From Marivita sp. (GTDB taxonomy: Bacteria; Pseudomonadota; Alphaproteobacteria; Rhodobacterales; Rhodobacteraceae), in contig NZ_JAIPUS010000011.1 of the NCBI RefSeq assembly GCF_020055675.1, positions 64,774 through 108,618 on the forward strand: DNA of 43,845 nucleotides. Reading direction: 5' to 3'. This document shows, in pieces, positions 8,143-25,193 of the stretch (position 1 is the stretch's first letter; the number at the start of each line of letters is the position of its first letter). The position numbers and the translations under genes were made by a program. Under the pieces are notes generated by a model. That model searched no databases. It saw nothing but the letters and a program-made list of their open reading frames with translations, and was not told the origin of the DNA.

Positions 8143-8149
8143 CCCGAGC

Positions 8150-8171: not shown

Positions 8172-8221
8172 TCCCCCTTCTGCATCGGGTGTGTCACGCT
8201 CCAACTGTCCCGGATATCTTC

Positions 8222-10180
8222 ATGCTGCGCTTTGTCGCCATTTTCCTCGCTTGTCTGACGGTCTCGCTTCCGGTTCCTGCTCAACAGGCTGACGCGCCCA
8301 TACAGCAGGTATTGCAGTCCCATCGCGACATTCTTCTGGAAAGCTCGCGCCGGACGATCGGGCCAGCGATTGATACGCTTGCCAATTCCGGCCTGCCAGC
8401 CGCGCAGGACGTTCTGGAACGCTGGCAGACCAAGGACATGTGGTTCAACGAAGACAGCGGCCTGTTCGTATATGCAGAAGAGATTGACCGTGACACGCTG
8501 CGCATTTTCGATTTTGCCAACGGATCCGAGATTGGCATCGTGCCCGATGATGACTTTGATCAGCTGAAACCAAACTCCGGGATTCGCAGCATGATCGGCA
8601 CCGCGTTGGTGCAGTTCCAGCTCAGTGATCCGGACCGCGACACCCGTGTCGCCGCTTTGAACGCAATCGAACGCGGGGCCGAGAAAAGCCATTTGGCAGC
8701 CTTGCGCGACAGTATCCCGACCGAAAGTGACGAAGCGCTGTTGCAGCGCAAGATGCGGCTTGAACGTCTGCTTACCATCAGGTTCGGTGAAACCGACGCG
8801 GCCCGGATCGAGGCCATCAAGAGCTTTGCCGGCGATCTGGGCGTTGATGTCCGCGCGGCCCTGAACCCTCTGGTGGCGGTCCGTCTTGAGGCTGCCGCGG
8901 CCCTGCCGGACGCACCTGATATCGGCCGGACCCTGGTGCCGGGGTCGGAGGCGCTCAGCCGCCATGACGCATATGCGCTGCTGGTCGATGACGGCCTCGC
9001 CAAACCCCGCATCAGCCGGGACAATCAACGCACTGCTTTGATCGAGAACATCGAGGACGGTCAGGTCGCCGGCATTCGGGTCGCCACATTGGACAGCCAA
9101 TCCGCCCGCGACCTGGCCTATGCCGCCCTCGCGGAGCAGGGAACCGTCGACGCCGTCGCGACAGCGGCCGAAGTTGAAGAGCGGCTTGCCAACCACGTCT
9201 TCTACGAGCGTTACATCGGCGCCCCGCCCGAAGTTGTCGCCGCTGCGCAACTGGCTCTTGGCGCGATCGAGAACAAGGTCGCGGTAAACCGGGCCTTCGA
9301 CCTTGGACTGGATGCCCTGTCGCTTGCTTCCATCTACTTCCTAGCGGCCATCGGGCTTGCCATCACCTTTGGCGTGATGGGTGTCATCAACATGGCGCAT
9401 GGCGAGTTCATCATGATGGGGGCCTATACCGGCTATGTCGTGCAGCTTTTCATTCCCGATTACACGCTGTCGATCATGGTTGCGATCCCGCTGGCCTTTG
9501 CGGTTACCTTCGGCGCGGGTGTTGCGATGGAACGACTGGTGATCCGCTGGCTCTATCACCGCCCTTTGGAGACATTGCTGGCCACTTTCGGCATTTCGAT
9601 CGCGCTGCAACAAATCGCCAAGAACATCTTCGGCACGCAGGCCCGGCCTCTCACCGCCCCGGGCTGGCTGGACGGGTCATGGGTGATCAACGACATCGTC
9701 TCGATCAGCTATATCCGGATCGCGATTTTCGGCCTTGCCTTGTTGTTCCTTGCGCTGATCCTGTTCGTGATGAACCGCACACGGCTCGGCCTTGAAGTGC
9801 GCGCTGTCACGCAGAACCCCCGCATGGCGGCCTCGATGGGCATCAACCCCGACAAGATCAACATGCTGACCTTCGGGTTCGGATCGGGCATTGCCGGGAT
9901 CGCCGGGGTCGCGATCGGGCTTTATGCCAAGGTCACCTCGGAAATGGGGAGCGACTACATCGTGCAGTCCTTCATGACCGTGGTGGTCGGCGGCGTTGGC
10001 AATATCTGGGGCACGCTTCTGGGGGCCACGATGGTCGGGACACTGCAAAAGGGGATCGAATGGCTCAACCCGTCCAATACATTGGCGGCGCAGACATACA
10101 TGATCCTCTTCGTCATCCTGTTTATCCAGTTCCGGCCCCGGGGCATCATCGCCCTCAAGGGCCGTGCAGCGGAGGCATGA
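8222..10180 (+). CDS. urtB: Urea ABC transporter permease UrtB with long periplasmic N-terminal domain
   Basis: 652 residues from ATG 8222, which begins a clear signal-like sequence (MLRFVAIFLACL...VPAQQ). The open frame extends further upstream over the hairpin and urtA end, but that part has no signal and no ribosome binding site. Residues about 23-350 are a soluble domain with helical repeats (VRVATLDSQSARDLAYAAL-like units), as in many proteobacterial UrtB proteins. From about 360 the LivH-type permease begins: LGLDALSLASIYFLAAIGLAITFGVMGVIN, then the family motif NMAHGEFIMMGAY, and ends with EMGSDYIVQSFMTVVVGGVG and FRPRGIIALKG. It forms the heterodimeric inner-membrane channel with UrtC. 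The start has a poor Shine-Dalgarno sequence. Three bases separate it from urtC. Confidence 0.93.
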   Translation: MLRFVAIFLACLTVSLPVPAQQADAPIQQVLQSHRDILLESSRRTIGPAIDTLANSGLPAAQDVLERWQTKDMWFNEDSGLFVYAEEIDRDTLRIFDFANGSEIGIVPDDDFDQLKPNSGIRSMIGTALVQFQLSDPDRDTRVAALNAIERGAEKSHLAALRDSIPTESDEALLQRKMRLERLLTIRFGETDAARIEAIKSFAGDLGVDVRAALNPLVAVRLEAAAALPDAPDIGRTLVPGSEALSRHDAYALLVDDGLAKPRISRDNQRTALIENIEDGQVAGIRVATLDSQSARDLAYAALAEQGTVDAVATAAEVEERLANHVFYERYIGAPPEVVAAAQLALGAIENKVAVNRAFDLGLDALSLASIYFLAAIGLAITFGVMGVINMAHGEFIMMGAYTGYVVQLFIPDYTLSIMVAIPLAFAVTFGAGVAMERLVIRWLYHRPLETLLATFGISIALQQIAKNIFGTQARPLTAPGWLDGSWVINDIVSISYIRIAIFGLALLFLALILFVMNRTRLGLEVRAVTQNPRMAASMGINPDKINMLTFGFGSGIAGIAGVAIGLYAKVTSEMGSDYIVQSFMTVVVGGVGNIWGTLLGATMVGTLQKGIEWLNPSNTLAAQTYMILFVILFIQFRPRGIIALKGRAAEA

Positions 10181-10183
10181 TAC

Positions 10184-11437
10184 ATGACTGACGCAGCCTT
10201 TCCCCGCCGCCAGCCCATCGCCCTTCGTTTCCCGTCGGTGATGATCTTTCTGGCCATCCTCGCGCTATTCACCGTCGGCGTGACGATCCTTTCCGAAGGC
10301 TTTGGCATCGGCGTGATCTCGACCAGTTTTGTCAAGACGTTGGGCAAGACTCTCTGCCTTTGCCTCGTGGCCCTGGCGATGGATCTCGTCTGGGGATATT
10401 GCGGTATCCTGAGCCTGGGTCACATGGCCTTCTTCGGACTTGGCGGTTACGCCATTGGCATGTGGCTGATGTATGCGCGGACAGAGATTATCGTACTGGA
10501 AAGCCTTGCCGCAGCGCCCCTACCCCCGACGCCGCAAGAGGTATCGGACGGGATTGCCAGCCAAATCTTTGGCGTTGTCGGCGCAGCGGAATTCCCGCCG
10601 ATCTGGGCCTTTGCCCATTCCCTGCCGCTGCAACTTGCGGCGGTGGTACTGGTGCCCGGACTTCTGGCGCTGGTTTTCGGATGGCTCGCGTTCCGCAGCC
10701 GTGTCACCGGTGTCTACCTGTCGATCCTGACCCAGGCGATGACGCTGGCGCTGTCATTGCACCTTTTCCAGAACGATAGCGGGTTGCGTGGCAACAACGG
10801 TCTTTCGGGTCTGCAAAACCTGCCCGGTCAATCGGACATATCACAGGATATCGTGTCGCTCTGGTTCTTCTGGGCCTCGGCTGTCGCCCTTGGTCTTGGG
10901 TATCTGCTTTGCGCCTGGGTCGTGTCCGGCAAGTTCGGATCGGTGATCCGCGCCATCCGCGACGACGAGGCGCGCGTGCGCTTCCTTGGCTACCCGGTCG
11001 AAGCATTCAAACTGGCGGTCTTTACCCTGACCGCCGTCATTGCCGGCATTGCGGGCGCGCTGTATTATCCGCAGGCCGGGATCATCAACCCGGCCGAGGT
11101 GGCACCAATCGCTTCGATCTACCTGGCGGTCTGGGTCGCCATCGGCGGGCGCGGGCGCCTTTATGGTGCGGTGATCGGCGCGGCCTTTGTCTCGTTGCTG
11201 TCCACCTGGTTCACCGGGGGACAGGCGCCCGACATCGGACTTGGGTTTTACACCATCAACTGGGTTGATTGGTGGACCGTCCTTCTGGGTCTGTCCTTTG
11301 TGTGTGTCACTCTCTTCGCGCCAAAAGGCATCGGCGGTCTCGTTGATCTCTTGGTCGATCGGCATTCCCTGGATCGTCATGGTGCAGATCTTGGCCCTGA
11401 CCAGGGCGCGCTGCGCGAACAGGAGGCCGAGAAATGA
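10184..11437 (+). CDS. urtC: Urea ABC transporter permease UrtC
   Basis: 417 residues, ATG 10184, three bases after urtB, with GGAGG just upstream inside the end of urtB. A LivM-type permease: repeated hydrophobic segments, WGYCGILSLGHMAFFGLGGYA at about 64-84 (the family's signature loop), GNNGLSGLQNL and the cytoplasmic EAA-like loop SVIRAIRDDEARVRFLGYP that contacts the ATPases, followed by VFTLTAVIAGIAGALY. The insertion between the third and fourth segments (around APLPPTPQEVSDGIASQIFG) is usual for UrtC. The C-terminal tail (RHGADLGPDQGALREQEAEK) is hydrophilic and cytoplasmic. The stop overlaps the urtD start as ATGA, indicating translational coupling. Confidence 0.95.
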   Translation: MTDAAFPRRQPIALRFPSVMIFLAILALFTVGVTILSEGFGIGVISTSFVKTLGKTLCLCLVALAMDLVWGYCGILSLGHMAFFGLGGYAIGMWLMYARTEIIVLESLAAAPLPPTPQEVSDGIASQIFGVVGAAEFPPIWAFAHSLPLQLAAVVLVPGLLALVFGWLAFRSRVTGVYLSILTQAMTLALSLHLFQNDSGLRGNNGLSGLQNLPGQSDISQDIVSLWFFWASAVALGLGYLLCAWVVSGKFGSVIRAIRDDEARVRFLGYPVEAFKLAVFTLTAVIAGIAGALYYPQAGIINPAEVAPIASIYLAVWVAIGGRGRLYGAVIGAAFVSLLSTWFTGGQAPDIGLGFYTINWVDWWTVLLGLSFVCVTLFAPKGIGGLVDLLVDRHSLDRHGADLGPDQGALREQEAEK

Positions 11438-12174
11438 GCACATTGCTCGAAGTGTCCGGCGTTTCGGTTTCGTTTGACGGGTTCAAGGCAATCAACAACC
11501 TGTCTTTCCAGATTGCCGACGCCGAACTGCGCGCGGTGATCGGGCCGAACGGAGCGGGCAAGACCACGTTCATGGATATCGTCACCGGCAAGACCAAACC
11601 CGACGAGGGCCGCATCGTCTATGGGGACCGTGGTGATAGTCTGCTTGGCATGTCGGAAAGCCGGATCGCGCAAATCGGGGTGGGGCGGAAATTTCAGCGG
11701 CCCACCGTGTTCGAAGACCAAAGCGTGTTCGCCAACCTGATGATGGCCCTGCGCAAGAGCCGGTCGCCGTTCTCGGTCCTGTTCTTCAAACCGTCGCAGG
11801 AAGACGACGACAAGGTTGCCGAACTGGCAGGAGAAATCGGCCTTTCCGCAGCCTTGCACCGAAAGTCGGGCGAACTGAGCCATGGGCAAAAGCAATGGCT
11901 GGAAATCGGAATGCTGCTGGCGCAGGAACCCCGCCTTTTGCTTGTCGATGAACCCGCCGCCGGCATGACACCTGCAGAACGTGAGCACACGACCGATATT
12001 CTGCGCGAGGCGGCAAAGACCCGAGCGGTGGTCGTCGTGGAACATGACATGGAATTTGTACGCCGCTTGAACTGCAAAGTGACGGTTTTGCACGAAGGGT
12101 CGGTTCTGGCCGAGGGGTCACTCGACCATGTGACCAACAACGAACAGGTGATCGAGGTGTATCTTGGGCGATAA
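11434..12174 (+). CDS. urtD: Urea ABC transporter ATP-binding protein UrtD
   Basis: 246 residues, start overlapping urtC by four bases (ATGA). A LivG-type ATPase: Walker A GPNGAGKTT at 37-45, a Q-loop in GVGRKFQRPTVFED, the signature motif in the variant form LSHGQKQWLEIGM (SHGQ in place of SGGQ, typical of UrtD), Walker B LLLVDEPAAGM and switch histidine in VVVVEHDMEFV. It pairs with UrtE on the cytoplasmic face of UrtBC. Full length for the family. The 3' end overlaps the proposed TTG start of urtE by 11 bases. Confidence 0.96.
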   Translation: MSTLLEVSGVSVSFDGFKAINNLSFQIADAELRAVIGPNGAGKTTFMDIVTGKTKPDEGRIVYGDRGDSLLGMSESRIAQIGVGRKFQRPTVFEDQSVFANLMMALRKSRSPFSVLFFKPSQEDDDKVAELAGEIGLSAALHRKSGELSHGQKQWLEIGMLLAQEPRLLLVDEPAAGMTPAEREHTTDILREAAKTRAVVVVEHDMEFVRRLNCKVTVLHEGSVLAEGSLDHVTNNEQVIEVYLGR

Positions 12175-12871
12175 TGTTCTGAAAACCGAAGGCTTGACCC
12201 TGCATTACGGCGGCAGCCAAATCCTGAACGGTATCGACATGACCGCCGCCAAAGGCGAGATCACCTGCGTGATGGGCACAAATGGCGTTGGCAAAACGTC
12301 CTTGCTCAAAGCTATCTCCGGAACGCACGCGTTTTCGGCCGGCGCGATGACAATGAACGGTGAAGCCATCAAATCGGCCTCTGCTCATGCAATGGCACAA
12401 AAAGGGGTCGGATACGTGCCGCAGGGACGGGATATCTTTCCGCTGCTGACCGTCAGGGAAAACATGGAAACCGCCTTCGCCTGCCTGCCAAGGTCCGAGC
12501 ATTTCATCCCCGACCACATCTTCGGCCTGTTTCCGATCCTCAAGGAGTTCCTCAACCGGCGTGGCGGCGACCTGTCGGGGGGGCAGCAACAACAGCTCGC
12601 CATCGCGCGCGCGCTGATCACCAAGCCAAGGCTCCTCCTGCTGGACGAGCCGACAGAGGGAATCCAGCCCAATATCATCCAGCAGATCGGTCGTGTCATT
12701 GCGCTATTGCGCGAACAGGCCGATATGGCGATCATTCTGGTCGAACAGTATTTCAGCTTCGCATACGATCTCGGTGATCGTTTTTACATTCTCGAACGCG
12801 GCGCGGTAAAGATCAGCGGCCCGAAGGCACAGCTTGATCGACAAGACCTGCTTGCGGGCATGTCCGTCTGA
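12164..12871 (+). CDS. urtE: Urea ABC transporter ATP-binding protein UrtE, TTG start
   Basis: 235 residues. No ATG or GTG lies in frame before the first conserved strand; the TTG at 12164 has GAGGTG six bases upstream and gives an N-terminus (GDNVLKTEGLTLHYGGSQIL) aligned with LivF-type ATPases, so TTG is the likely start. The ATG at 12174 is out of frame. Motifs: Walker A GTNGVGKTS at 38-46, VGYVPQGRDIFPLLTV (Q-loop), LSGGQQQQLAIARAL signature, LLLLDEPTEGIQPNI Walker B and ILVEQYFSFA switch region. Completes the transporter; the last gene of the operon, with the next gene convergent. Confidence 0.94.
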   Translation: MGDNVLKTEGLTLHYGGSQILNGIDMTAAKGEITCVMGTNGVGKTSLLKAISGTHAFSAGAMTMNGEAIKSASAHAMAQKGVGYVPQGRDIFPLLTVRENMETAFACLPRSEHFIPDHIFGLFPILKEFLNRRGGDLSGGQQQQLAIARALITKPRLLLLDEPTEGIQPNIIQQIGRVIALLREQADMAIILVEQYFSFAYDLGDRFYILERGAVKISGPKAQLDRQDLLAGMSV

Positions 12872-12931: not shown

Positions 12932-14518
12932 TTACGTTTGATCGGCTCTCTTGAATGCACCCTGCACGATGCGGTCCATGACCATGGCCAGGAACAGGAT
13001 GGCGAAGCCACCCAAAAGACCCGGCCCTTTGGCCGCGAATTGCAACGCTTCCAGGATTTCCTGACCCAGGCCACCGCCGCCGATAAGCGAGATGATCACA
13101 ACCATGGACAGGCACATCAGGATCGTCTGGTTCACACCTGTCATGATCGAGGGCAGTGCCAAGGGCAGCTCCACATCCTTGAGCAATTGCCACTTGGATG
13201 CACCAAAGGCGACCGCCGCTTCCTTGATGCTCTCGGGCACACCCCGCATGCCAAGTGCTGTCAGCCGGATCACCGGAGGCATTCCGAAGATGATCGTGGC
13301 GAGGATGCCCGGCGGATTGCCAGTTCCGAAAAATGCGATGATCGGGATGAGGTAAACGAAGGCGGGCAAGGTTTGCATCAGGTCCAGCACCGGTTCGGCC
13401 ATGCGATAGGCGCGGTTCGATTTGCCGAACCAGATGCCAAGCGGGATGCCGATGATCACGCAAAGCAGCACCGCCGAACCCACGAGCGCGACCGTCTCCA
13501 TCGCGAGCGCCCAGTAGCCCAGCAGCGCGGTATAGGCCATCGCCGCCACGGTAAAGATGGCGACGCGTGGACCTGCGGCACGGTACGCCGTCACCGCGAC
13601 AACCAGCATCACCACGGGCCAGGGCGAACCGTTCAAGGCCAGCGTCAGGCCGTCCAGCACGGTGCGGACACCGCTCACAATCCCGTCGAACACGTCACTG
13701 CCGGCGGTTGCCGCAGCGTCGATCCTGTCCTCCATCCATGAGGCCACTGCCCCGAACAAGGTGCCACCACCTTCGCCCAGGAAGATCTCCGATACGCGCC
13801 GTTCAGGGAACTCGTTCAACAGCGAAAGCGAATTGCTGACCGTGAACTTGTAGATGATGAGCGGCGCAATCGCCGCTGTCAGACCACAGCCCAGCACTAG
13901 GTTGGGAGTGTAGCGCCCGCTTTCTACATGGTCCGGATCGATCCGCCAGTGCGAATACTGCTTTTCATAGAGGATGTTGGCATAGACACCCTGCATCAGC
14001 TTGAACGCCACCAGAAGGATCACACCGGTGATCAGGATACCCGCAGCCTCGGCCTGCGCCGCCTCGGCGCGTTCGATGTTTTGTTCGATGGCGCGCTGCA
14101 TGTTGCCCGCAAGCGTTTCGAACCTTTGGCGTGTCTCTTCATCGGCCGCCGCGGCCGCCTGATCCAAGCGCTCCTGCATCCTTTCGCGCTGTTGCGCGGC
14201 ACGGTCCAGAAAATCGGCCCCAAGATCGCCCCAGAGCCCGCGGCCGATCTGCACCCAGGCGATGATCTCAAGGATCAGAAACGCCCAGAACATGCCCCAG
14301 ATCGCACGCGACGCGGCCCATATCGGGCCCAGAAGCGCGGCAGCAATGTTGAATGTCCAGGGAAAAGCGCCGGTGGCATCGTGGATCTTATGAAAGACCC
14401 GGACATAATAATCGCCGTTTGGCCCGGCGAAATCCTTGATCGATTTGTCCAGCGCGGCGCGATCGACCTCGACATCCGAAGCGGCCGTGACCTGCATGTC
14501 ACTGGTTGCGTCGCTCAT
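12932..14518 (-). CDS. Betaine-type ABC transporter permease with long N-terminal membrane and coiled-coil region
   Basis: 528 residues from ATG 14518 (GGAGTCCAGGGAGGCAAAG-type leader upstream); an earlier in-frame start is less likely because it lies deep in the ATPase gene. The C-terminal ~230 residues are a standard OpuAB/ProW permease with ALLGYWALAMETVALVG, LMQTLPAFVYLIPIIAFFG and the EAA loop (KEAAVAFGASKWQLLKDVELP), followed by MTGVNQTILMCLSMVVI. The first ~300 residues are extra: a membrane segment at 55-90, a charged coiled coil at 103-160 (RAAQQRERMQERLDQ...), further hydrophobic segments at 158-175 and 207-225, and a soluble loop. Usual ProW/OpuAB proteins have about 280-350 residues. 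Last gene of the six-gene operon, overlapping the ATPase by 20 bases. Substrate class (betaine, choline, TMAO or similar zwitterion) is known for the family; the actual substrate is not evident. Confidence 0.88.
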   Translation of the reverse strand: MSDATSDMQVTAASDVEVDRAALDKSIKDFAGPNGDYYVRVFHKIHDATGAFPWTFNIAAALLGPIWAASRAIWGMFWAFLILEIIAWVQIGRGLWGDLGADFLDRAAQQRERMQERLDQAAAAADEETRQRFETLAGNMQRAIEQNIERAEAAQAEAAGILITGVILLVAFKLMQGVYANILYEKQYSHWRIDPDHVESGRYTPNLVLGCGLTAAIAPLIIYKFTVSNSLSLLNEFPERRVSEIFLGEGGGTLFGAVASWMEDRIDAAATAGSDVFDGIVSGVRTVLDGLTLALNGSPWPVVMLVVAVTAYRAAGPRVAIFTVAAMAYTALLGYWALAMETVALVGSAVLLCVIIGIPLGIWFGKSNRAYRMAEPVLDLMQTLPAFVYLIPIIAFFGTGNPPGILATIIFGMPPVIRLTALGMRGVPESIKEAAVAFGASKWQLLKDVELPLALPSIMTGVNQTILMCLSMVVIISLIGGGGLGQEILEALQFAAKGPGLLGGFAILFLAMVMDRIVQGAFKRADQT

Positions 14519-15548
14519 CTTTGCCTCCCTGGAGTCCCCGCAGCAGGCGCGGCTTGCTGACGATGCCGATATCGGCCCCGTCCTGGGTGATGACGACCGG
14601 CAGATCGGTGCCCACCGCAAGATCGATCAGCGCATCGAGATCGGCGCTTTCATCGGCACGCGGCGCACCGTCCAGGGAGCCGGGGTAACTGTCCATGGAC
14701 TCGATGATGGAATGGGCTTTCACCAGCTTGAGCTTGGAAATGCCCTGGACGAAGTCACGCACATATTCGTCCGCCGGGTTCATCACGATGTCTTCGGGTG
14801 TGCCGATCTGCACGATGACACCGTCCTTCATGATCGCGATGCGATGACCGATGCGGATCGCTTCATCCAGATCGTGCGTGATGAATAGCGTCGTCTTCCT
14901 GAGCTGCGCCACAAGCGCCTTGAACTGGTCCTGCAATTGCAGCCGGATCAGCGGATCGAGGGCGGAAAACGGCTCGTCCATCAAAAGAATTTCCGGGTCC
15001 GAGGCAAGCGCCCGCGCGATACCGACCCGCTGCTGCATCCCGCCTGACAATTCGCGGGGCAGCCGGTCTTCGTATCCCGTCAGGTCAACCAGCCCCAGCA
15101 CGTGATCGGAAACCGCCCAGCGCTTGGATTTCGGCATTTTGCGGATTTCCAGCGGATAGGCCACGTTGTCCCGCACCGACCTGTGCGGCAACAGCGCCAT
15201 GTGCTGGAACACCATGCCGATCTGTTGCGCGCGAATGCGGCGCAAATCACGATCCGAAAGCGACGAGACATCCTGGCCAAGGATTTCGATCTTGCCCGCA
15301 GTCGGTTCGATCAGGCGGTTCACATGCCGCACAAGCGTGGATTTGCCGGACCCGGACAGGCCCATGATGCAAAAAATCTCGCCGCGAGCCACTTCAAAGC
15401 TCGCACCCTGAACACCGACGACACACTTGTATTTCTCAAGAACCTCAGGCTTGGTCAGCCCATCGTCCAGCACCGCCTGCATGGCCTCGCTGCTGCGGTC
15501 ACCGAAGATCTTCCAGACGTTTTCGAGTTTTACTACCGGATCGTTCAT
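14499..15548 (-). CDS. Betaine-type ABC transporter ATP-binding protein
   Basis: 349 residues from ATG 15548, preceded by GGGAGAGGCC; the longer frame from 15572 is less likely. An OpuAA/ProV-type ATPase: an N-terminal VVKLENVWKIFGDR, the family's spacer helix (MQAVLDDGLTKPEVLEKYKC), Walker A GLSGSGKST at 63-71, ELSGGMQQRVGIARALA signature, EILLMDEPFSALDP Walker B and LFITHDLDEAIRIG switch. The C-terminal ~85 residues contain a shortened regulatory part (DLPVVITQDGADIGIVSK, CBS-like) as in ProV homologues. Lies 99 bases downstream of the binding-protein gene and overlaps the permease. Confidence 0.92.
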   Translation of the reverse strand: MNDPVVKLENVWKIFGDRSSEAMQAVLDDGLTKPEVLEKYKCVVGVQGASFEVARGEIFCIMGLSGSGKSTLVRHVNRLIEPTAGKIEILGQDVSSLSDRDLRRIRAQQIGMVFQHMALLPHRSVRDNVAYPLEIRKMPKSKRWAVSDHVLGLVDLTGYEDRLPRELSGGMQQRVGIARALASDPEILLMDEPFSALDPLIRLQLQDQFKALVAQLRKTTLFITHDLDEAIRIGHRIAIMKDGVIVQIGTPEDIVMNPADEYVRDFVQGISKLKLVKAHSIIESMDSYPGSLDGAPRADESADLDALIDLAVGTDLPVVITQDGADIGIVSKPRLLRGLQGGKDERRNQ

Positions 15549-15647
15549 TGGCCTCTCCCTCGGAGCGCGCATCTCCGGCCAGCGCGGACACGCCGGACAT
15601 GTGAAGATCAGGCCACCACGCTTGGCAGTGGCCCAGCCGCAAGAGGC

Positions 15648-16610
15648 TCAGTTGGTCAGCCAGTTGATCACGGTGTCCTGGTTCTCGGACACCCACTGGC
15701 TGGCAAAATCGGCCGCTTCCTCGCCATCGACGGCCAAGGCTTTGCCCATTGCGCCCAGGTCGTCACCGGTCATCTGATAGTTCTCGAACAGCGATGCGAC
15801 CTCGGGATAGGCGTCTTCGATTTCCTTGGCATAGTGCAAGTGCAACGTGGCGCCATTCCACGCGGTCGAGGCCTTGGATTTTTCCAACCAGTCGGGATCA
15901 TCTGTCGGCTGCACGATTTCCCACGTGTCGGTATCATGCGCCGGTTCTTCAAGAACGTAGAGATCTTGCGTCACAAAGATGTAATGCGGGCTGTAGCAGA
16001 AACCGAGCCACGGCTCATTTGCCGTTGTCGCATTGGCGAGGTTCGCATAGGCGATGGTCTCTTCGTACTCTGTCAGCTCGAACATCTGGTCATAGCCATA
16101 GGACTTGGCCCGGACCTTTTCGACAACAGTCGACGCCCAGCCCGGCGCGCCGACCCAGACTTCAGGCGTGCCGTTGCCATCCGTGTCGAAGATCCCGATC
16201 TTGTCCGGATCGCTCAGATCGTCGATATGGGTGATGTCGTATTCCTCGGCGATATAGCTTGGCACGCACATGCCCTGCTCCGCCTGCACCGGGTTCTCGT
16301 TCATCACAACGGTCCCGTTGTCCTTGACATAGGTGTCGTGCAGATTCTGCTGGTTGGGCATCCAGACTTCGGGGTGCACATGCATGGACCCCTTGTCCAT
16401 CGCTTCGAATACGATCGGATTGGTGCCGTTCTGCAATTCGACATCAAGACCAAGATTGTCTTCGATCACCACTTCGAGGACATGCGCGGTCGCGTTCACC
16501 GAGGCCCAGTTTGGCACGCCGATCACGATATCGGCAGCCTGCGCCGCACCGGCCGCCGCAACACCGATAATGGCCGAAGTCGTCAACGTTCTTGTTTTGG
16601 TTGATTGCAT
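15648..16610 (-). CDS. Betaine-type ABC transporter substrate-binding protein
   Basis: 320 residues with a Sec signal (KTRTLTTSAIIGVAAAGAAQA, cut near residue 26), so periplasmic. It belongs to the OpuAC/ProX family: DIVIGVPNWASVNATAH at the mature start, MHVHPEVWMPNQ, WVGAPGWAS and NEPWLGFCYSPHYIF. Aromatic residues able to cage a cationic headgroup are Trp 35, 83, 158 and 201. Relatives include glycine betaine, choline, carnitine and TMAO (TmoX) binders, and sequence alone does not separate them. It is unusual that the gene follows three enzyme genes in one operon; the start is 30 bases after the racemase stop with GGGAAGGGACG as ribosome binding site. This context makes a ligand that is both zwitterionic and degradable by PLP enzymes likely. 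Confidence 0.88.
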   Translation of the reverse strand: MQSTKTRTLTTSAIIGVAAAGAAQAADIVIGVPNWASVNATAHVLEVVIEDNLGLDVELQNGTNPIVFEAMDKGSMHVHPEVWMPNQQNLHDTYVKDNGTVVMNENPVQAEQGMCVPSYIAEEYDITHIDDLSDPDKIGIFDTDGNGTPEVWVGAPGWASTVVEKVRAKSYGYDQMFELTEYEETIAYANLANATTANEPWLGFCYSPHYIFVTQDLYVLEEPAHDTDTWEIVQPTDDPDWLEKSKASTAWNGATLHLHYAKEIEDAYPEVASLFENYQMTGDDLGAMGKALAVDGEEAADFASQWVSENQDTVINWLTN

Positions 16611-16640
16611 GTGGTCGTCCCTTCCCTGTTGATTGATCTG

Positions 16641-17378
16641 TCAGGACGTTGCCCGTTTCGCAGCGCCCCAAGTGTTCACGCCGGATGAGGACACACCCGA
16701 CTGCGAATATTCTACTGTTCTGTTCACCAGCACTTGAAGCGCATCATATATTGGTATTTTGACAACAATATCTGTCGCCAAAAGCGAAAATTCGGTGCAG
16801 CAGACGCATATGACATCCGCACCATCCGCCGCCAGTCCTTCGCAGATGTCAGTCAGCGTCCAGGCCGAACGCGCCGACGGCCCCTCCGATTTGATGGCGC
16901 GGATCGTGGCCAGGGCCCGCTCCGGGTCGCGTGTATATACCGGCGACAGACCCTCTTTGGCCAAGGCGGCCTCGAACACAGCAACCTGTTGAAGCGCCGG
17001 AGACCCCAAAAGCCCGACCTTTCCGCCCGGCGCGAGGGACGCGGCCTCGGCGCAGGCAAGATCGACCATGTTCAAAAACGGTGCGTTGGTCGCGGCCGCG
17101 ACCTGATCAGCATAATAATGCGCGGTGTTGCAGGGCATGACCAATGCCTCGGCGCCGATTGACACCAATCCCTTCGCCATCTGCGACAGCACCGGACCGG
17201 GATCCGCGCTGTGGCCTTCAAGGATCGCGGCAATGCGCGACGGTACCTGCGTGTTGTTGTCCACCAGAAGCGGGACATGATCTGAATCATCCTGCGCGGC
17301 CACGGCTGCCACGACCTGTTGCATGAAATAGATCGTCGCTTCGGGACCCATGCCACCCAGCACGCCGATTTTACGCAT
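16641..17378 (-). CDS. Aspartate/glutamate racemase family protein
   Basis: 245 residues. Start ATG 17378 shares its A with the upstream stop (TGATG), and AAGGAG lies just before, so translation is coupled to the aminotransferase gene. The N-terminus IGVLGGMGPEATIYFMQQ is typical of the cofactor-independent Asp/Glu racemase (YgeA/RacD) family; both catalytic cysteines are present: MPCNTAHYY (Cys 83) and CVCCTEFSL (Cys 194). The family interconverts D and L amino acids, but also includes hydantoin racemases and maleate isomerases, so the substrate must be inferred from context. A role in bringing a D- or L-amino acid into the form used by the adjacent lyase or aminotransferase fits best. The last ~20 residues are hydrophilic and poorly conserved in appearance. 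Confidence 0.88.
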   Translation of the reverse strand: MRKIGVLGGMGPEATIYFMQQVVAAVAAQDDSDHVPLLVDNNTQVPSRIAAILEGHSADPGPVLSQMAKGLVSIGAEALVMPCNTAHYYADQVAAATNAPFLNMVDLACAEAASLAPGGKVGLLGSPALQQVAVFEAALAKEGLSPVYTRDPERALATIRAIKSEGPSARSAWTLTDICEGLAADGADVICVCCTEFSLLATDIVVKIPIYDALQVLVNRTVEYSQSGVSSSGVNTWGAAKRATS

Positions 17379-18580
17379 CAGGCTGCTCCTTTTTGCAGGG
17401 CCTGTTCCACCACATGTGCAATGATGTCCGCGACATTGGCGCAATCTTCAAGACTGAATGTCAAGGGGATACGCATATCCAGCAAACCGGCAAGGATTGC
17501 ATCCGTATTGGGCAGGTCTTGGGCTTCGACGTACCGCCAGCTTTGATGGTTCGACGTGAAGCCAACCGGAATGTTCGCGCCAAACCACTTGAGTTCGACG
17601 CCCAGCGCCTTGGCCTGCTTCACCACCTGCTGCATCCTGTCGGCATTGGCCTCCGGCATGAGGAACTGGAATGACGATCCGACATAGCTTTCCTGTTCCG
17701 GGCGATCCGGCACGTCTATGCCGTCCACGCGCCGCAACCGATCCGCCACGAGGTCATGCCGCGCGTTCCAGCGGTCGATATTCGTCTCTAATGCTTGCAA
17801 TTGTGGCAAAAGGAGCGAGGCCCTCAGGTTGTCCATCCGACCCGACATATTCGGTGTGTCCAGCCTTATATCCTCGAAAACTTCGGGCGATGGCGCCGCG
17901 CCATGGCGGTCATACAGCATATAGGACCCCGACAGCATGATCGCGCGGGCCATGAAGACCGGATCGTCCGAGGTGATCAGCCCGCCTTCACCACTGTTCA
18001 TGTGTTTGTAAGTCTGGGTCGAGAAACAGCCCGCAACGCCGAAACTGCCCGATTTCCGCCCGTTCCAAGCCGCACCCATCGTGTGTGCGCAATCCTCGAT
18101 CAGCGGCACGCCATTGCGGTCCAGAAGCGCCATGAGCGCCTCCATGTCGCACAGGTGCCCGCGCATGTTCGACAAGAGCAGGCACTTCGGATCGGTCGCT
18201 TTGATCTTGGCTTCCAGATCGTCCAGATCGAGAACCAGATTTCTGGTAATCTCGACCAGCAGCGCCTCGGCCCCGACGGCGGCAATCGCGCCGGGCACGG
18301 GTGCCAGCGTAAAGCCGTTGGTCAGAACCGTGTCGCCAACGCCGACACCCAGCGCGCGCAAGGCGGTGGCCATCGCGTACCCGCCCGAGGTGCAGGCAAG
18401 GCAATATTCAGAGCCTTGATAGGCGGCATAGGCCTTCTCAAGTTCGGCCACCGGACCAAGTTCGCCTTGCACGGTGTTGTATCGGTGCAGCCGTCCACTG
18501 CGCATCACATCGACAGCCGCCTCGATCGCATCCTCGGGAACGGGTTCCTGCTGCGTGAAGCTGCCGGTGAACGGCTGCAT
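17378..18580 (-). CDS. DegT/DnrJ/EryC1/StrS family PLP-dependent aminotransferase
   Basis: 400 residues from ATG 18580, six bases after the lyase gene. Fold type I aminotransferase of the DegT family: CTSGGYAMATALRALGVGVGD at 63-83, LPFLIEDCAHTMGAAW-like segment with PLP-binding Asp 163 in LIEDCAHTMGA, and FSTQTYKHMNSGEGG carrying the Schiff-base lysine (Lys 192). DegT enzymes usually aminate keto sugars for glycans or antibiotics, but some act on small keto acids. Here the gene lies between a cysteate-lyase-type enzyme and a racemase with an ABC importer, far from the glycan genes, so a catabolic or amino-compound role is more likely than sugar amination. No second sugar-nucleotide gene is nearby. 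The substrate is not known. Confidence 0.87.
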   Translation of the reverse strand: MQPFTGSFTQQEPVPEDAIEAAVDVMRSGRLHRYNTVQGELGPVAELEKAYAAYQGSEYCLACTSGGYAMATALRALGVGVGDTVLTNGFTLAPVPGAIAAVGAEALLVEITRNLVLDLDDLEAKIKATDPKCLLLSNMRGHLCDMEALMALLDRNGVPLIEDCAHTMGAAWNGRKSGSFGVAGCFSTQTYKHMNSGEGGLITSDDPVFMARAIMLSGSYMLYDRHGAAPSPEVFEDIRLDTPNMSGRMDNLRASLLLPQLQALETNIDRWNARHDLVADRLRRVDGIDVPDRPEQESYVGSSFQFLMPEANADRMQQVVKQAKALGVELKWFGANIPVGFTSNHQSWRYVEAQDLPNTDAILAGLLDMRIPLTFSLEDCANVADIIAHVVEQALQKGAA

Positions 18581-18586
18581 CGCGCC

Positions 18587-19612
18587 TTACTCCGCCGCCA
18601 TCTTGGGCGCGTCGTATTCGAACGCTGCCGTATACCCAAAGAGCGCAACACCACCGCCGGTGTGAAGGAAAACGATGTTCTCATCGCCTGTGAAGGTCCC
18701 TTTGCGCACCAGGTCTACCAATCCGGCAGCCCCTTTACCGGAATAGACCGGGTCGAGCAGAATCCCTTCAAGCCGGGCAAACATTTCGATCGCGGCCAGC
18801 CCGTCCTTGGTGGGGATGCCATAGCCATCACCGACGTAATCGGTGTTCGCCTCGACATCCGCACGCGCCACTACGCCGGGGCATCCCAGCTTCTCGGCCG
18901 TCTTCACGGCCAGGTTGAAGACATTCTCTTCCTGTTTCGGCTTGGGCGCCCGCACCCCAATGCCCAGAAGCGGGATATTCGCATTGATGGCCTTGAGACC
19001 GACGATAAGGCCCGCCTGGGTCCCGGCGCTGCCAGTGGCGTGCACGATGCGGTCGATCCGAAGATCCATGGCGTTTGCCTGTGTCACCAATTCCATTGCC
19101 GCGTTGGCATACCCCAAGGCACCGGTCGGGTTGGACCCGCCACCCGGAATGGTGTAGACAGTCCGCCCCTCGGCGCGGAACTTCTCTGCCACCGCTTCCA
19201 TTTCGGCATTCATGTCGAGTCCGGACCCAGGGCGCTTTTCCGCCGTCGCACCATGCAGGAAATCGAGGAAGACATTGCCGTTTTCGTTGTAATTGGGATC
19301 GTTTGAACCGGTCCGGTCTTCCAGCAGGATATGGCAATCAATGCCCAATCTTGCCGCGCAGGCCGCCGTTTGCCGGGCATGATTGGATTGCGTCGCGCCT
19401 TGGGTGATGACCAGATCCGCCCCCTGTTCTTGCGCCTCCGCCATCAGGAATTCCAGCTTTCGGGTCTTGTTCCCACCTGTGGACATGCCCGTGCAATCAT
19501 CGCGCTTGATCCAGATGCGTGGCCCTCCAAGCTCTTTTGACAGACGGTCCATCGGCTCCAACGCGGTGGGCAGATGTGCGAGGTGAACTCGGGGGAAACG
19601 GGAGAAATGCAT
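18587..19612 (-). CDS. cuyA: L-cysteate sulfo-lyase / D-cysteine desulfhydrase family PLP enzyme
   Basis: 341 residues from ATG 19612, with AAAGGATCC upstream; the in-frame start at 19669 lies inside the promoter region. Fold type II PLP enzyme of the ACC deaminase/D-cysteine desulfhydrase family: [21 protein letters not shown] (PLP lysine Lys 49), [15 protein letters not shown] (Ser 76), [25 protein letters not shown] phosphate-binding loop, [10 protein letters not shown] and [14 protein letters not shown]. The GSAGTQAG and [14 protein letters not shown] stretches agree with what I remember of Ruegeria CuyA, which splits L-cysteate into pyruvate, ammonium and sulfite. Plain D-cysteine desulfhydrases are the alternative. 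First gene of the operon, divergent from a LysR regulator. Family certain; the cysteate assignment is probable. Confidence 0.72.
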
Positions 19613-19687
19613 CTGGGATCCTTTCAAACTGATTGGTGCGACACTTCTGCATGGAATACGACTCGTCAAATAGAATTACCGGCGACA

Positions 19688-19706
19688 TTATGCAGGTTAC
19701 GCATAA
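19688..19706. promoter_or_regulatory. LysR-type operator between cuyA-like operon and its regulator
   Basis: TTATGC-AGGTTAC-GCATAA is a perfect inverted repeat with 6-base arms, and contains the LysR consensus T-N11-A (19691 to 19703). It is 82 bases upstream of the operon's first ATG (19612) and 12 bases before the regulator's ATG (19718), in the position expected for an activator that also represses its own gene. A second, weaker dyad TTC-TGCATG-GAA lies at about 19645-19656. Confidence 0.6.
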
Positions 19707-19717
19707 AGAGGCCAAAA

Positions 19718-20611
19718 ATGCGAATAGACTGGATCGATGACCTTGTTGCGCTTCTCGACACGGGCGGCGTCGCTGATGCCGCCCGCCTGCGCAATATAAC
19801 ACAGCCCGCATTTTCCCGTCGCATCAAAGTTCTGGAAGACGTGCTGGGAATCGAGATCATCGATCGAAGCGTGAAACCCAGCGGCCCGTCCCCGCTGCTG
19901 CGCGACCGCGAAGGAGCGCTGCGCAAACTGGCCACCGAGCAGCGCCAGCTGTTGTCGGACATGCGTCAGGAACACAGCACCGGCCTTCGCCAGATGGTGA
20001 TCGCCAGTCAGCACGCGATCACCACCTCGATGGGCACGCGGATCATCAACACGGTGGCCGATCCGAGCAGCACGCATATCCGCCTGCGATCCGCCGATCA
20101 GCATGAATGCGAGACTCTTTTGATCCGACGGCAGGTCGCGATCTCGCTCACGTACCGGATCAAGTCAGAACCGGTGGCCGACGTGCCCACCTTCCTGACC
20201 GAAGCGGTCATCGGCGCGGACACCCTCATCCCTGTCTGTGGCGCGGACGAGTCCAGTGCTCTGATGGCCCAATATGAAAACGGCGCGCTGCGCATCATTG
20301 GTTACCCGTCGGATGTGTTCTTGGGCTCCGCGATCACCCGGCATATTTTGCCGCCGCTTCACGCCCAGTGCGTCATTCGTGTCGTCACCGAAACCGGCCT
20401 GACAACTGCGGCGATGCAATTGTCGCAATCCGGGCTTGGCATCGCGTGGGTTCCACAGGCACTCGCCCAACCCGCCCTGGACCGCGGCGAACTGCATGAC
20501 CTCACGGATCGGCTGGGCGGGATCAGCCTGACACTGGTTGCGCAACGATGGGCGACAACCACCAATAGCACCACCCTGGATGCCTGGGAACGGCTGACCA
20601 CCGCGCTGTAG
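19718..20611 (+). CDS. LysR family transcriptional regulator
   Basis: 297 residues from ATG 19718, with AAAGAGGCC upstream. The frame is open further upstream, but that part overlaps the divergent promoter and does not look coding. The N-terminal winged helix-turn-helix is recognisable: MRIDWIDDLVALLDTGGVADAARLRNITQPAFSRRI type arrangement at 1-36 (recognition helix around TQPAFSRRIKVLE), then an effector-binding domain of two alpha/beta lobes to about 290 (MVIASQHAITTS; LIPVCGADES; GLGIAWVPQ). It is divergent from, and has a T-N11-A site shared with, the cuyA-like operon, so it is probably the regulator of that operon, with the imported compound or a breakdown product as inducer. It is convergent with the marR remnant. 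Confidence 0.88.
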   Translation: MRIDWIDDLVALLDTGGVADAARLRNITQPAFSRRIKVLEDVLGIEIIDRSVKPSGPSPLLRDREGALRKLATEQRQLLSDMRQEHSTGLRQMVIASQHAITTSMGTRIINTVADPSSTHIRLRSADQHECETLLIRRQVAISLTYRIKSEPVADVPTFLTEAVIGADTLIPVCGADESSALMAQYENGALRIIGYPSDVFLGSAITRHILPPLHAQCVIRVVTETGLTTAAMQLSQSGLGIAWVPQALAQPALDRGELHDLTDRLGGISLTLVAQRWATTTNSTTLDAWERLTTAL

Positions 20612-20654
20612 CCGGATATGCGACCCTGACACGGGTTGAAAACGCGCGTCACAG

Positions 20655-20895
20655 TCAGGCATCATCGCCAAGCAAACTGTCCAGCCCGGCGTCAAGACCC
20701 TCGAACGCACTGCCAAGGCGATGCTCGATCTCGGCCTGATACGCCTTCGCCAGCGGCAGCAACTCTGCCATCAGGGACTGGCCCTCCCGGGTCAAGGCAA
20801 GCTGCACGAGCCGTCGGTCGGATCCATGGGCGGCCTTCGCGATCAACCCTTTTTCGGCCAGCCGCTTGGCGGTCCGGCTCACCTCGTATTTCTCA
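20655..20895 (-). pseudogene. 5'-truncated MarR family regulator
   Basis: The minus frame ending at 20655 encodes the second half of a MarR regulator: EKYEVSRTAKRLAEKGLIAK (recognition helix and following strand), HGSDRRLVQLALTREG (the wing with its DRR motif), LMAELLPLAKAYQ and a C-terminal dimer helix. Everything before the recognition helix is missing: at about 20895 the sequence switches to hmgA sequence on the other strand, and an in-frame stop (TAG) lies just beyond. About half the protein is lost and there is no ribosome binding site or start, so it is a remnant. In roseobacters a MarR gene divergent from hmgA is common, which fits. Confidence 0.8.
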
Positions 20896-21259
20896 AAATG
20901 CAACTACGGCCTGTATGACGAACAGCTCTACGGCACCGCCTTCACCGCCAAACCTCCAAGCGGACATGGACATACCGGATCAGGCCCTCCGTAAAACATT
21001 CGGCCCGCTACAGCCCGATGCACCTGCCTTACTGGAAATCCGCGCCGCATGTCTTGGACGATATCACCTCGCTGGGCCTGTATCGTTGGGATCCCATGCC
21101 CCACTCGGACGCGCCACTGACATGGCGGGAGACGTGAACACCCAGATGGGCATGGCAACCCATGTTTATCTTGTCACAGAGTCGATGCAGGATGCCTATT
21201 TCTACTCGGCCGACAGTGAGCTTCTGATTGTTCCGCAAGTGGGCCGGCTGCGCTTTTGC
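20896..21259 (+). pseudogene. hmgA: Degenerate homogentisate 1,2-dioxygenase remnant
   Basis: Three pieces of one homogentisate dioxygenase are visible in three frames. Piece 1 (20896-20952): KCNYGLYDEQLYGTAFTA. Piece 2 (20961-21126): RTWTYRIRPSVKHSARY, then MHLPYWKSAPHVLDDITSLG and YRWDPMPHSDAPLTW. Piece 3 (21128-21259): GDVNTQMGMATHVYLVTESM then YFYSADSELLIVPQVGRLRF. The frameshifts between them match short deletions (about ten codons are missing before GDVNTQ). The N-terminal ~35 residues and the C-terminal ~300, including the iron ligands and catalytic histidines, are gone. No functional enzyme can be made. The intact enzyme opens homogentisate in tyrosine and phenylalanine breakdown. Identification from memory of the family, strong because several long blocks agree. 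Confidence 0.85.
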
Positions 21260-21343
21260 CGCTGGACATCTTTGATGCGACAACCGTCATGCCTTGCGCT
21301 GGGCGCGGACGCACGTCACCTTATCGAAGAACTTTCGGAATGA
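21260..21343 (+). pseudogene. Unidentified C-terminal fragment after the hmgA remnant
   Basis: Directly after the last hmgA codon the sequence no longer matches that enzyme and ends with a natural-looking C-terminus (LGADARHLIEELSE, stop at 21341-21343), 13 bases before the GST gene. It is probably the 3' end of a gene that once lay between hmgA and the GST, joined by the deletion. I cannot name it; the flavin hydroxylases often found in such aromatic loci are a guess. Confidence 0.4.
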
Positions 21344-22022: not shown

Positions 22023-23447
22023 TCACGCGACGTTTGACAGCCGGATCGGGGTGTTTTCGATCAGTTCCCCATGCAGCGCCTTGATGACTGGCTCCATCGA
22101 ATCGCGATCCAGGACGAATTGTACGTCCACGTTGCGCGGTCCCTGGGTTGCGCCAATCGCTTCGCAGCCCGCATCGGCGATCGCCTGCAGGCCACGCGTC
22201 AGAACCGACAAGCCGGAGAGGTCGCGGCCAATGACCGACACCATCGCGAGACGACGGGTCGAAAGTTCGGCGGCCGGAAACATCTTTGCGACGTCACGCT
22301 CCACCCGGCGCATCGTCTTGAGAGACGCATCAAGGTAGTGCGTGATCGTGTTCGCGTTCGACACCTTGGAGACGATGCGGACATCGTGCCGCTTGAGCAC
22401 TTCGAGAATGCCGGAATCGTAGCCTTTGACGCCGACCATGTCCTGTTCGAACACTTCGAACGTCACGATATCGAGGCCCGTCACGATCTCCGCCGCGGCT
22501 TCCTCGGACGGCTGATCGTCGATCAGCGTACCGGGATCGCCCGGATCGAACGCGTTGGTAACGCGAAGCGGGACACCTGCCTGACGCAGAGTTTTGGCTG
22601 CCTTTGGATGAATTGCTTCCATCCCCATGTTCGACAACTGATCGGCCACGTCGTAATTTGTCCGGCCAAGTTTGCGTACCGCATCTTCGCCAACCAGCTT
22701 GGGATCGGCAGAGGACAGGTGGAATTCCTTGTGAATGATCGCTTCGCGCGCGCCCGTGAGGGCAGCCAGATGCGAGAACGTCACTTCGGAGTAGCCCCGG
22801 TCGAATTCGTTCATCAAACCTTCGACGCATTGCGCATAGCCGGTGACGATCGGCATTTCGGTGGCTGGATCGATGCTCTCGAATGCGTCGGTGATGCGCT
22901 GTTCAAGCGAGACATCCCCTTCGTCGCGCCAGCCGGACAGATCCACGAAGCGGGCTTCAACACCACTGCGTTGCAACATGATGGCTGTGACAATAGCGGC
23001 ATGCGCCTCACCCAGCCCGGAAAGTAGCTCGCGGATATGACCCATGTGTTCGGGCAGACGGAAATGGCCGTAGGAACACAGGCGTTGCAGGTCGATCAGG
23101 CAGTTGCGCGCGCCGAGAACACGTTCTTCAACGAACATATCCGCCTGCTGGACGTCCCCGTTATGGGTCAGGATCTCGGCATGGGCCGCTTTCATCGCGT
23201 CCTGAACCTTGTCCAGCGCATCCTGCCATTTGTGATTGCTGTCATCATTGGCAAACAGCGCATAGACGCCCGGTTCACCGGATTTCTTGTGTTCCAGCAG
23301 CAGGTTCGTGATCCCTGCAAAGGCAGAGACCACAAAGGCCCGATTGTAGAGGTCACCGCCTTCGCGGTCACCCACGAAGAGCGTTTCGCGCAATTCGGTC
23401 AGGCGGGACATCGAGGTCCCACCAATTTTTTCAACTGTATGCGTCAT
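22023..23447 (-). CDS. ask_ect: Ectoine-operon aspartate kinase
   Basis: 474 residues from ATG 23447, one base after the ectC stop. The start gives the typical N-terminus THTVEKIGGTSMSRLTELR (kinase K-x-G-G-T-S motif); the longer frame runs back into ectC. It phosphorylates L-aspartate, the first step to aspartate semialdehyde, which EctB then aminates. Kinase residues include FVVSAFAGITNLLL and ARFVDLSGWRDEG; TGYAQCVEGLMNEFDRGYSE is the Asp-binding stretch. C-terminal ACT domains begin near IVTFEVFEQDMVGVKGYD, followed by RLAMVSVIGRDLSG. The long helical insert near residues 50-110 (GVYALFANDDSNHKWQDAL) is characteristic of Ask_Ect, which is not under the usual strong lysine/threonine feedback control. 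Last gene of ectABC-ask. Confidence 0.95.
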   Translation of the reverse strand: MTHTVEKIGGTSMSRLTELRETLFVGDREGGDLYNRAFVVSAFAGITNLLLEHKKSGEPGVYALFANDDSNHKWQDALDKVQDAMKAAHAEILTHNGDVQQADMFVEERVLGARNCLIDLQRLCSYGHFRLPEHMGHIRELLSGLGEAHAAIVTAIMLQRSGVEARFVDLSGWRDEGDVSLEQRITDAFESIDPATEMPIVTGYAQCVEGLMNEFDRGYSEVTFSHLAALTGAREAIIHKEFHLSSADPKLVGEDAVRKLGRTNYDVADQLSNMGMEAIHPKAAKTLRQAGVPLRVTNAFDPGDPGTLIDDQPSEEAAAEIVTGLDIVTFEVFEQDMVGVKGYDSGILEVLKRHDVRIVSKVSNANTITHYLDASLKTMRRVERDVAKMFPAAELSTRRLAMVSVIGRDLSGLSVLTRGLQAIADAGCEAIGATQGPRNVDVQFVLDRDSMEPVIKALHGELIENTPIRLSNVA

Positions 23448-23448
23448 T

Positions 23449-23844: not shown

Positions 23845-23849
23845 ATCGG

Positions 23850-25139: not shown

Positions 25140-25193
25140 ATGATGTCCTTTCAAGGCAATGGAATTTGATTTTTGGGAAGGCGAGCGCTGGCC

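Follow-up and report, generated by a model that had tools for sequence, protein, structure and literature searches.

What does the six-gene operon that lies opposite a LysR-type regulator gene in a Marivita genome take up, and how is that compound broken down? The stretch of DNA that was analysed (the window, 43,845 nucleotides of Marivita sp.) belongs to contig C22 of a 3.6-Mb genome that is 99.9% complete. On its minus strand lie cuyA, degT, cuyB and the binding protein, ATPase and permease genes of an OpuA-type ATP-binding cassette (ABC) importer, divergent from the regulator gene; this layout, described in an initial annotation made from the letters alone, was borne out with small corrections of the starts. 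The operon is probably an inducible unit for uptake and desulfonation of C3 amino sulfonates, namely cysteate and/or cysteinolate, which algae produce. The earlier idea that a single unit imports and degrades an amino sulfonate is supported, as is conserved synteny. The gene identities, the operon, its operator and the conserved module rest on sequence. The conserved operon is real, and its most interesting lead is that DegT, and also HpsN', an HpsN-type dehydrogenase linked to cuyA in sister operons, may act on cysteinolate.

Part of the answer lies in the core of the operon, which is already known. CuyA (18587..19612, minus strand), a D-cysteate sulfo-lyase dependent on pyridoxal 5'-phosphate (PLP), passes the NCBIfam equivalog model NF052482 over its full length with 539.2 bits against a cut-off of 450; its best solved relative is 7ysk, a D-cysteine desulfhydrase (428 bits). 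CuyB (16641..17378, minus strand), a cysteate racemase of the Asp/Glu racemase fold, passes model NF052483 with 263.3 bits against 190. Its cysteines, within MPCNTAH and CCTEFS, align with those of MPCNTAH and GCTEVS in the aspartate racemase 1jfl, and the two are taken to be the catalytic pair of this fold. CuyB is reported to interconvert L- and D-cysteate and CuyA to prefer D-cysteate, which gives the route from L-cysteate to D-cysteate by CuyB and then to pyruvate, ammonium and sulfite by CuyA (PMC11382572). Since this pathway is published, the core is not new, and the OpuA-type importer and DegT are the additions. The CuyB model supports the proposal that a racemase sets the stereochemistry, and L-cysteate as the substrate of CuyA has to be replaced by D-cysteate, on which the enzyme is now curated to act. 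The remark that no pathway with this combination had been described is right in part, CuyB and CuyA each having an NCBI curated model and together a published route. CuyA is not the sole desulfonation route of the genome, since two Xsc genes exceed their curated cut-off and one GD_AH_second hit, not resolved as SuyB, was found as well. The Xsc genes lie at G000:C22:17683-19413, on the window's own contig, and at G000:C9:196952-198685.

The gene order was followed in 80 genome loci chosen by DegT similarity, the best 80 of 527 relatives found, among which the window DegT is nearest to Marivita-type loci (81-85% identity in L003-L012). The full order, LysR|cuyA-degT-cuyB-binding protein-ATPase-permease, occurs in 10 of the 80 (L004, L006, L008, L010, L011, L019, L025, L028, L035 and L040), from Marivita, another Rhodobacteraceae metagenome-assembled genome, Ahrensiaceae, Rhizobiaceae, Afifellaceae and Tepidamorphaceae. 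The order is thus not unique to the window genome, a check that the initial annotation had proposed, and it is more than chance. A cuyA gene is present in 30 of the 80 loci, 28 of them with a cuyB-like gene. We find that cuyA-degT-cuyB forms a module whose importer can be swapped within one slot, which is new here. Of these 30 loci, 11 have an OpuA-type binding protein in the slot and another 11 a Tau-like ATPase (35-43% identity), with a TauA-like binding-protein open reading frame (ORF) in 8 of the latter 11; the TauABC-like nature of this alternative importer was judged from one set, L034. No importer was seen in eight of the 30, L038 among them ending short. Gene calling gave an HpsN-type ORF in 12 loci of this set and a YeiH/CuyZ-like one in eight. 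For instance, L028 and L035 carry the window's gene order together with HpsN', and L055 reads LysR|cuyA-cuyB-hpsN'-degT-cuyZ-like. The importer is present in five of the ten Marivita-type relatives (L004, L006, L008, L010 and L011).

The LysR-type regulator gene (CuyR-like; 19718..20611, plus strand) encodes an HTH_1 domain over the cut-off of PF00126; it starts at 19718, the ATG at 19574 in the ORF list being too early because the match to this domain begins at residue 53 of that ORF. Between the divergent genes lies the sequence TTATGC-AGGTTAC-GCATAA (19688..19706), which contains T-N11-A, so that both a HTH_1 domain and the spacing typical of LysR-type divergent regulation are found. A single copy is weak evidence, as 42 of 2000 shuffles of the intergenic sequence give arms of at least 6 bases with a 7-base spacer. 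Across the window genome and its relatives L003-L012, though, the arms are invariant, no two centres agree and the spacing to cuyA is constant (11/11), and the operator recognised in the initial annotation is real. The repeat TTATGC-N7-GCATAA is present in L038 too, and an ATGCA-N5-TGCAT core recurs at roughly equal distance in the OpuA-type loci L019, L025, L028, L035, L040 and L148 and in the Tau-type loci L051 and L161. No operator-like repeat was found in the OpuA-type L014, in many other cuyA loci, or in L171, the only cuyA locus checked that carries the second importer type. The regulator would bind TTATGC-N7-GCATAA and, with an amino sulfonate as the presumed inducer, turn the operon on.

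The importer is encoded by a gene for an OpuAC-type periplasmic binding protein (15648..16610; PF04069, 171 bits), one for an ABC ATPase of ProV/OpuAA type (14499..15548, with an alternative upstream ATG at 15572) and one for a permease of OpuAB/ProW type with a long N-terminal part (12932..14518; PF00528), all on the minus strand. From cuyA to the permease gene the gaps are 6, -1, 30, 99 (or 75) and about -20 bases; the range of -1 to 99 given earlier is right for most of them, and the overlap of the ATPase and permease genes had been missed. The ATPase passes TIGR01186, the betaine/proline/choline ATPase subfamily (344.8 against 326.6 bits), the permease reaches 265 bits in TIGR03416, below its cut-off of 363, and all importer parts stay below the curated cut-offs of ChoXWV and ProXWV. 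Dimethylsulfoniopropionate (DMSP) is bound in DmpX by Trp35, Trp84, Trp152, Trp202, Tyr200, Thr64, Ala153 and Glu113 (PMC10030565). The places aligned to DmpX (7yle) in the window's binding protein are Trp35, Trp83, Trp158, Tyr206, Phe204, Thr63, Ala159 and Gln112, as read from a profile alignment, an AlphaFold2 model built on 12 close sequences (pLDDT 50) having been set aside. The four aromatic cage positions W35, W83, W158 and Y206 are therefore kept, and the acidic residue Glu113 of DmpX is lost to Gln112. With OpuA/ProU and DmpXWV the window importer shares the binding-protein family, the ATPase subfamily cut-off and the cage positions; it differs in its scores against the choline and ProXWV models, in Gln112 and in its place within a desulfonation operon. 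The predicted pocket fits a zwitterion, be it cysteinolate, cysteate or a methylated sulfonate. The relatives point to cysteinolate and cysteate over the N-methylated sulfur amino acid that had also been considered, and the kept cage leaves room for a methylated ligand. OpuA-type binding proteins beside cuyA fall into two diverged types, with 61-63% and 34-37% identity to that of the window. Cysteinolic acid serves algae as a compatible solute (PMC8703288) and as such would suit an osmolyte-type importer; the importer may bring in cysteate and/or cysteinolate. As a separate feature, a DxDGNG stretch resembling a calcium-binding loop is invariant in 14/14 aligned binding proteins.

How cysteinolate could reach CuyA was suggested by a census of the window's family with a single genome for each genus (295 genera). 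A CuyA match at E < 1e-100 was found in 88 of the 295 genomes, five of which have two; 60 loci from 58 genomes were examined. They were tallied by tblastn with the window and sister proteins, because the ORF caller missed cuyA in 15 of the 60. These loci hold cuyB in 45 cases, an HpsN-type gene in 28, an OpuA-type binding protein in 11, a Tau-type binding protein on the strand of cuyA in nine and a CuyZ-like gene (YeiH/CuyZ exporter) in eight, and half of them (30/60) have a divergent relative of the window LysR. DegT stands beside cuyA in 10 of the 60, all 10 with cuyB and seven with an HpsN-type gene. Sixteen loci combine cuyA, cuyB and an HpsN-type gene, with neither DegT nor an importer detected on the same strand. 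The order hpsN'-cuyA-cuyB is seen in 12 loci (L200, L202, L204, L206, L210, L214, L218, L222, L223, L225, L227 and L233). In eight of the 12 (L200, L202, L206, L210, L214, L218, L225 and L227) a divergent ORF of 321-339 residues, a LysR gene in L210, the one scanned, lies less than 120 bases from hpsN' and bounds the unit upstream; such an ORF was not shown in L222, L223 and L233, and L204 is cut by a contig end. Downstream, the next long ORF on the same strand has the size of LepA in several loci and is LepA in L202, where an alpha/beta hydrolase lies further off.

The reaction of HpsN is the oxidation of a primary alcohol to an acid, of R-2,3-dihydroxypropane-1-sulfonate (DHPS) to sulfolactate (PMC11131964, PMC11382572). 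The order hpsN'-cuyA-cuyB, likewise new here, implies a conversion of cysteinolate to cysteate, with HpsN' as a putative cysteinolate dehydrogenase. Unless a sulfolactate dehydrogenase or an aminotransferase is involved, cysteinolate is the only substrate that one HpsN-type step would turn into cysteate; enzymes encoded elsewhere may join the conversion. In a tree of 56 rows (the short rows L196 and L204 dropped; L055 and L230 identical), HpsN of hps clusters (22 rows, including Ruegeria pomeroyi HpsN) is separated from cuyA-linked HpsN' (33 rows) by one branch with support 100/99. The cuyA-linked HpsN' need not be one clade, since under a midpoint root the hps-cluster group falls inside it. 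The residues for catalysis and sulfonate binding, His127, Glu319, His320, Asp353, Lys354 and His360 (R. pomeroyi numbering), do not vary in either set. At positions 49 (Y in HpsN, W in HpsN'), 143 (C, V), 166 (A, M) and 382 (I, T) the two sets are almost wholly distinct. A changed substrate of HpsN' is supported by the tree. CpHpsN has been crystallised with L-cysteate, an inhibitor there, in the place of the product (PMC11382572), so the fold accepts an amino analogue. Compared with the DHPS cluster hpsKLMNOP, the dehydrogenase of the sister operons keeps the same catalytic and sulfonate-binding residues, yet it stands apart on the tree, desulfonation proceeds via CuyA, and hpsO/hpsP are missing from cuyA's strand in 59 of the 60 loci (the exception is L231).

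Two gene sets met in the census stand beside this subject. In L205, L217, L221, L229 and L237-L240, the second type of cuyA and OpuA operon, an ORF of about 240 residues follows the permease; in L240, the one scanned, it is an alpha/beta hydrolase, which suggests an ester- or amide-bound amino sulfonate as substrate. In L189, L193 and L197 an aminotransferase gene (cluster k29) lies beside a Tau-type importer and cuyA; it is of class III in L197, the one scanned, and possibly a taurine aminotransferase.

The remaining member of the module is DegT (17378..18580, minus strand), a VioA/DegT-type aminotransferase with a PF01041 score of 197 bits, the DegT fold and the PLP-lysine motif. Lys192, presumably the PLP lysine, precedes an invariant GEGG, and R30, R33, R140, R248 and R370 are invariant in 32 aligned relatives of both contexts, with and without cuyA. 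The protein stays below the curated cut-offs of PseC, LegC-type, ArnB-type, WecE and DesI models, the best score being 130 against 423.5 bits. Its predicted model (pLDDT 92) finds DegT-type aminotransferases, by title, as best Foldseek matches, and the 50 best are 17-26% identical. The best matches act on inososes, an aminohydroxybenzoate precursor and nucleotide sugars. With BtrR, RbmB, AHBA synthase and WbpE the window DegT thus has the fold and the PLP-lysine motif in common, and it is set apart by low identity and its own set of invariant arginines. A tree of 105 rows (from 115 extracted, leaving aside identical and short ones and the duplicate L001) has one half with all 34 cuyA-linked rows and 23 others, and another half of 48 rows without cuyA, the support of the split being 53. 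The stretches RLHRYN, MRGH, TQTYKH-x-NSGEGG and S-x-RMD, which hold invariant residues, are common to both halves (32 rows) and therefore argue for one common reaction. No cuyA is seen in 50 of the 80 DegT-picked loci, and in 21 of these 50 an ORF that we take to be glmS- or glmU-like lies near DegT. A role of DegT as a lipopolysaccharide or capsule sugar enzyme was rejected, as no equivalog cut-off is reached and as the link to the cuyA operon and the distribution with SalA and HpsN described below speak against it; chromosomal DegT copies may still have such a role.

The distribution of DegT, a further new finding, follows that of a lipid gene. SalA is the O-acyltransferase of the roseobacter sulfonolipid SAL (PMC8319176), the head group of which is given as cysteinolic acid (PMC11631085); the biosynthesis of cysteinolic acid is called still to be established in PMC8319176. 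Across the 295 genera, with statistics that ignore kinship, a DegT ortholog is present in 247 at E < 1e-100 and in 251 at E < 1e-60. SalA was counted as PF01553 matches picked by residue spacing (His109, Asp115, Arg135, Val189), without a named reference sequence. DegT and SalA occur together in 218 genera, DegT alone in 29, SalA alone in eight and neither in 40, an odds ratio of 37.6, when four genomes with weak DegT and 14 with weak SalA are entered as absent; entered as present, the numbers are 230/21/10/34 and the ratio is 37.2. As controls, odds ratios of 1.62 for a gene that we take to be of leucine-catabolism type, a neighbour of some chromosomal degT copies, of 1.61 for HpsN-type against SalA and of 1.91 (p 0.05) for soxB against DegT were obtained. 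DegT against HpsN-type gives 7.1, where the HpsN-type count (E < 1e-150) merges hps-cluster HpsN and cuyA-linked HpsN'. Of the 29 genera with DegT and no SalA, 22 have an HpsN-type gene; among the 253 genera that have SalA, an HpsN-type gene or both, 240 have DegT, against 7 of the 42 that have neither. A proposal for DHPS biosynthesis (PMC11131964) includes 3-hydroxy-2-oxopropanesulfonate (HOPS) next to cysteinolic acid. From the pattern with SalA and HpsN we propose that DegT interconverts cysteinolate and HOPS, a single reaction that would serve both lipid synthesis and the breakdown of C3 sulfonates. The window genome has salA and no other DegT at E < 1e-60, so its single copy would have to serve both uses.

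In the proposed scheme DegT would move the amino group between cysteinolate and HOPS, cysteinolate would be oxidised to cysteate by an HpsN-type dehydrogenase, available in the window genome only from a separate hps-like cluster, and CuyB and CuyA would then convert L- to D-cysteate and D-cysteate to pyruvate, ammonium and sulfite. A full cysteinolate pathway, in which the DegT subfamily is a cysteinolate aminotransferase (from HOPS to cysteinolate for the head group of SAL, and also in or beside breakdown) and HpsN' a cysteinolate dehydrogenase, is put forward tentatively, with somewhat less than even confidence. In the open literature searched, subscription papers being outside its scope, no description of a cysteinolate dehydrogenase, a cysteinolate aminotransferase or a bacterial cysteinolate route was found. 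Several observations weigh against the scheme or parts of it. Co-occurrence of DegT with CuyA is moderate (82/165/6/42 over the same genera, odds ratio 3.5), and CuyBA does not need DegT, because DegT adjoins cuyA in only the 10 census loci. No clear SalA is seen in DegT-bearing Hoeflea, Roseibium and Neomegalonema, which argues against DegT serving only SAL; among 21 genomes tested outside the family, 13 gave SalA matches of only 29-36% identity and eight none. The window operon lacks an HpsN' of its own, whereas sister operons encode one inside. L003, L005, L007, L009 and L012, half of the Marivita-type relatives, have the enzymes standing alone, so the importer is not indispensable to them. 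A cage of aromatic residues, as in the binding protein, normally goes with quaternary or tertiary cations, and the known cysteate importer of R. pomeroyi, cuyTUVW, is a different, four-gene system (PMC10130141). In the roseobacter Pelagibaca bermudensis cysteinolic acid showed no link to osmoregulation, zwitterions were not significantly changed by algal metabolites, and no uptake from an algal extract was apparent (PMC9695272).

DegT could instead be the missing sulfopyruvate aminotransferase, with DHPS or sulfolactate passing through sulfopyruvate to L-cysteate and on to CuyB and CuyA, so that the operon would finish the DHPS breakdown of the hps cluster. The window genome indeed has an hps-like cluster (L115) with a LacI-type regulator, a TRAP-type importer, HpsN and short- and medium-chain dehydrogenases (SDR/MDR) at the places of hpsO and hpsP, and DegT occurs in 135 of 142 genera with an HpsN-type gene. 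However, it is equally common in SalA-positive genera without an HpsN-type gene (105/111), where this route is unneeded; no sulfolactate dehydrogenase is among the six genes of the operon, which has its own importer and LysR. DegT-fold enzymes, moreover, usually act on sugar ketones, not on 2-oxo acids. In favour of such a role, PMC11382572 states as unknown the sulfopyruvate aminotransferase, the aminotransferase of this route, and the racemase of R. pomeroyi. On balance we regard it as rather unlikely for DegT.

The doubt may also concern the importer, which could be an osmolyte importer for glycine betaine or choline that merely neighbours a cysteate operon without a common task. Its ProV/ChoX-type families, the kept cage, its absence from half of the Marivita-type relatives, the missing operator-like repeat in L171 and the genes in the window that we take to be of ectoine type would all agree with this. 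Nevertheless, OpuA-type binding proteins of two diverged types accompany cuyA in 11 of the 60 loci and alternate with Tau-type sulfonate importers in one slot, and an operator of the same core precedes the first-type operons L019, L025, L028, L035, L040 and L148, though not L014; a mere neighbourhood is accordingly improbable. The four cage positions kept relative to DmpX would also accommodate an N-methylated or quaternary sulfonate, such as taurine betaine or a cysteate betaine, that would first be stripped elsewhere and then reach CuyA. No demethylase is found among the six genes or the neighbour clusters scanned, however, and the presence of CuyB and HpsN' suggests free cysteate and cysteinolate, which makes a methylated substrate very improbable. 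Uptake and desulfonation of cysteate and/or cysteinolate is the reading retained below.

Among known systems, the window operon shares with the published CuyB/CuyA desulfonation two enzymes that pass the curated models, and with cuyARZ of R. pomeroyi a regulator gene beside cuyA (PMC4334477); relative to the cuyARZ and CuyBA systems it adds DegT and the OpuA-type importer and lacks cuyZ. The task proposed for this importer, cysteate uptake, is that of cuyTUVW (SPO3040-3043), which, compared by description, has four components against the three of OpuA type and is unique or nearly so to R. pomeroyi with respect to 13 other roseobacter strains (PMC10130141). The second cuyA of R. pomeroyi, cuyA2 (SPO2657), adjoins by locus number a possible sulfonate ABC importer, SPO2658-2661, as in the sister operons of Tau type; both were raised in co-culture with Micromonas (PMC9870897), and we infer that SPO2657-2661 is the "unidentified sulfonate" signal of that study. 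Cysteinolate may be a candidate for the unidentified sulfonate sensed by bacteria near algae (PMC9870897). Certain marine microalgae can contain more cysteinolic acid than DMSP in their cells (PMC8703288). If the cysteinolate reading is true, a full route of uptake, oxidation to cysteate, racemisation and desulfonation would exist for an abundant algal osmolyte, and DegT may be the missing step in the supply of cysteinolate to the membrane lipid SAL in related bacteria. A candidate aminotransferase, a candidate dehydrogenase and two importer types make this open question of the marine sulfur cycle testable gene by gene in laboratory roseobacters.

The surroundings of the operon hold further genes. 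At window positions 22023-25727 on the minus strand, ORFs that we read as an aspartokinase and EctC-, EctB- and EctA-like proteins presumably form an ectoine synthesis operon near the amino-sulfonate operon. From about 20640 to 21300, after the LysR gene, lie what appear to be pieces of a MarR-type and a homogentisate-dioxygenase-like gene, fused and with broken frames, as if left by a deletion. On the other side, from about 8081 to 12871 on the plus strand, genes that we assign to a branched-chain or urea-type ABC transporter end just beside the permease gene of the operon. The last two ATPase genes of this ABC set (clusters c16 and c18) closely follow the racemase gene in the Marivita-type loci that have no importer.

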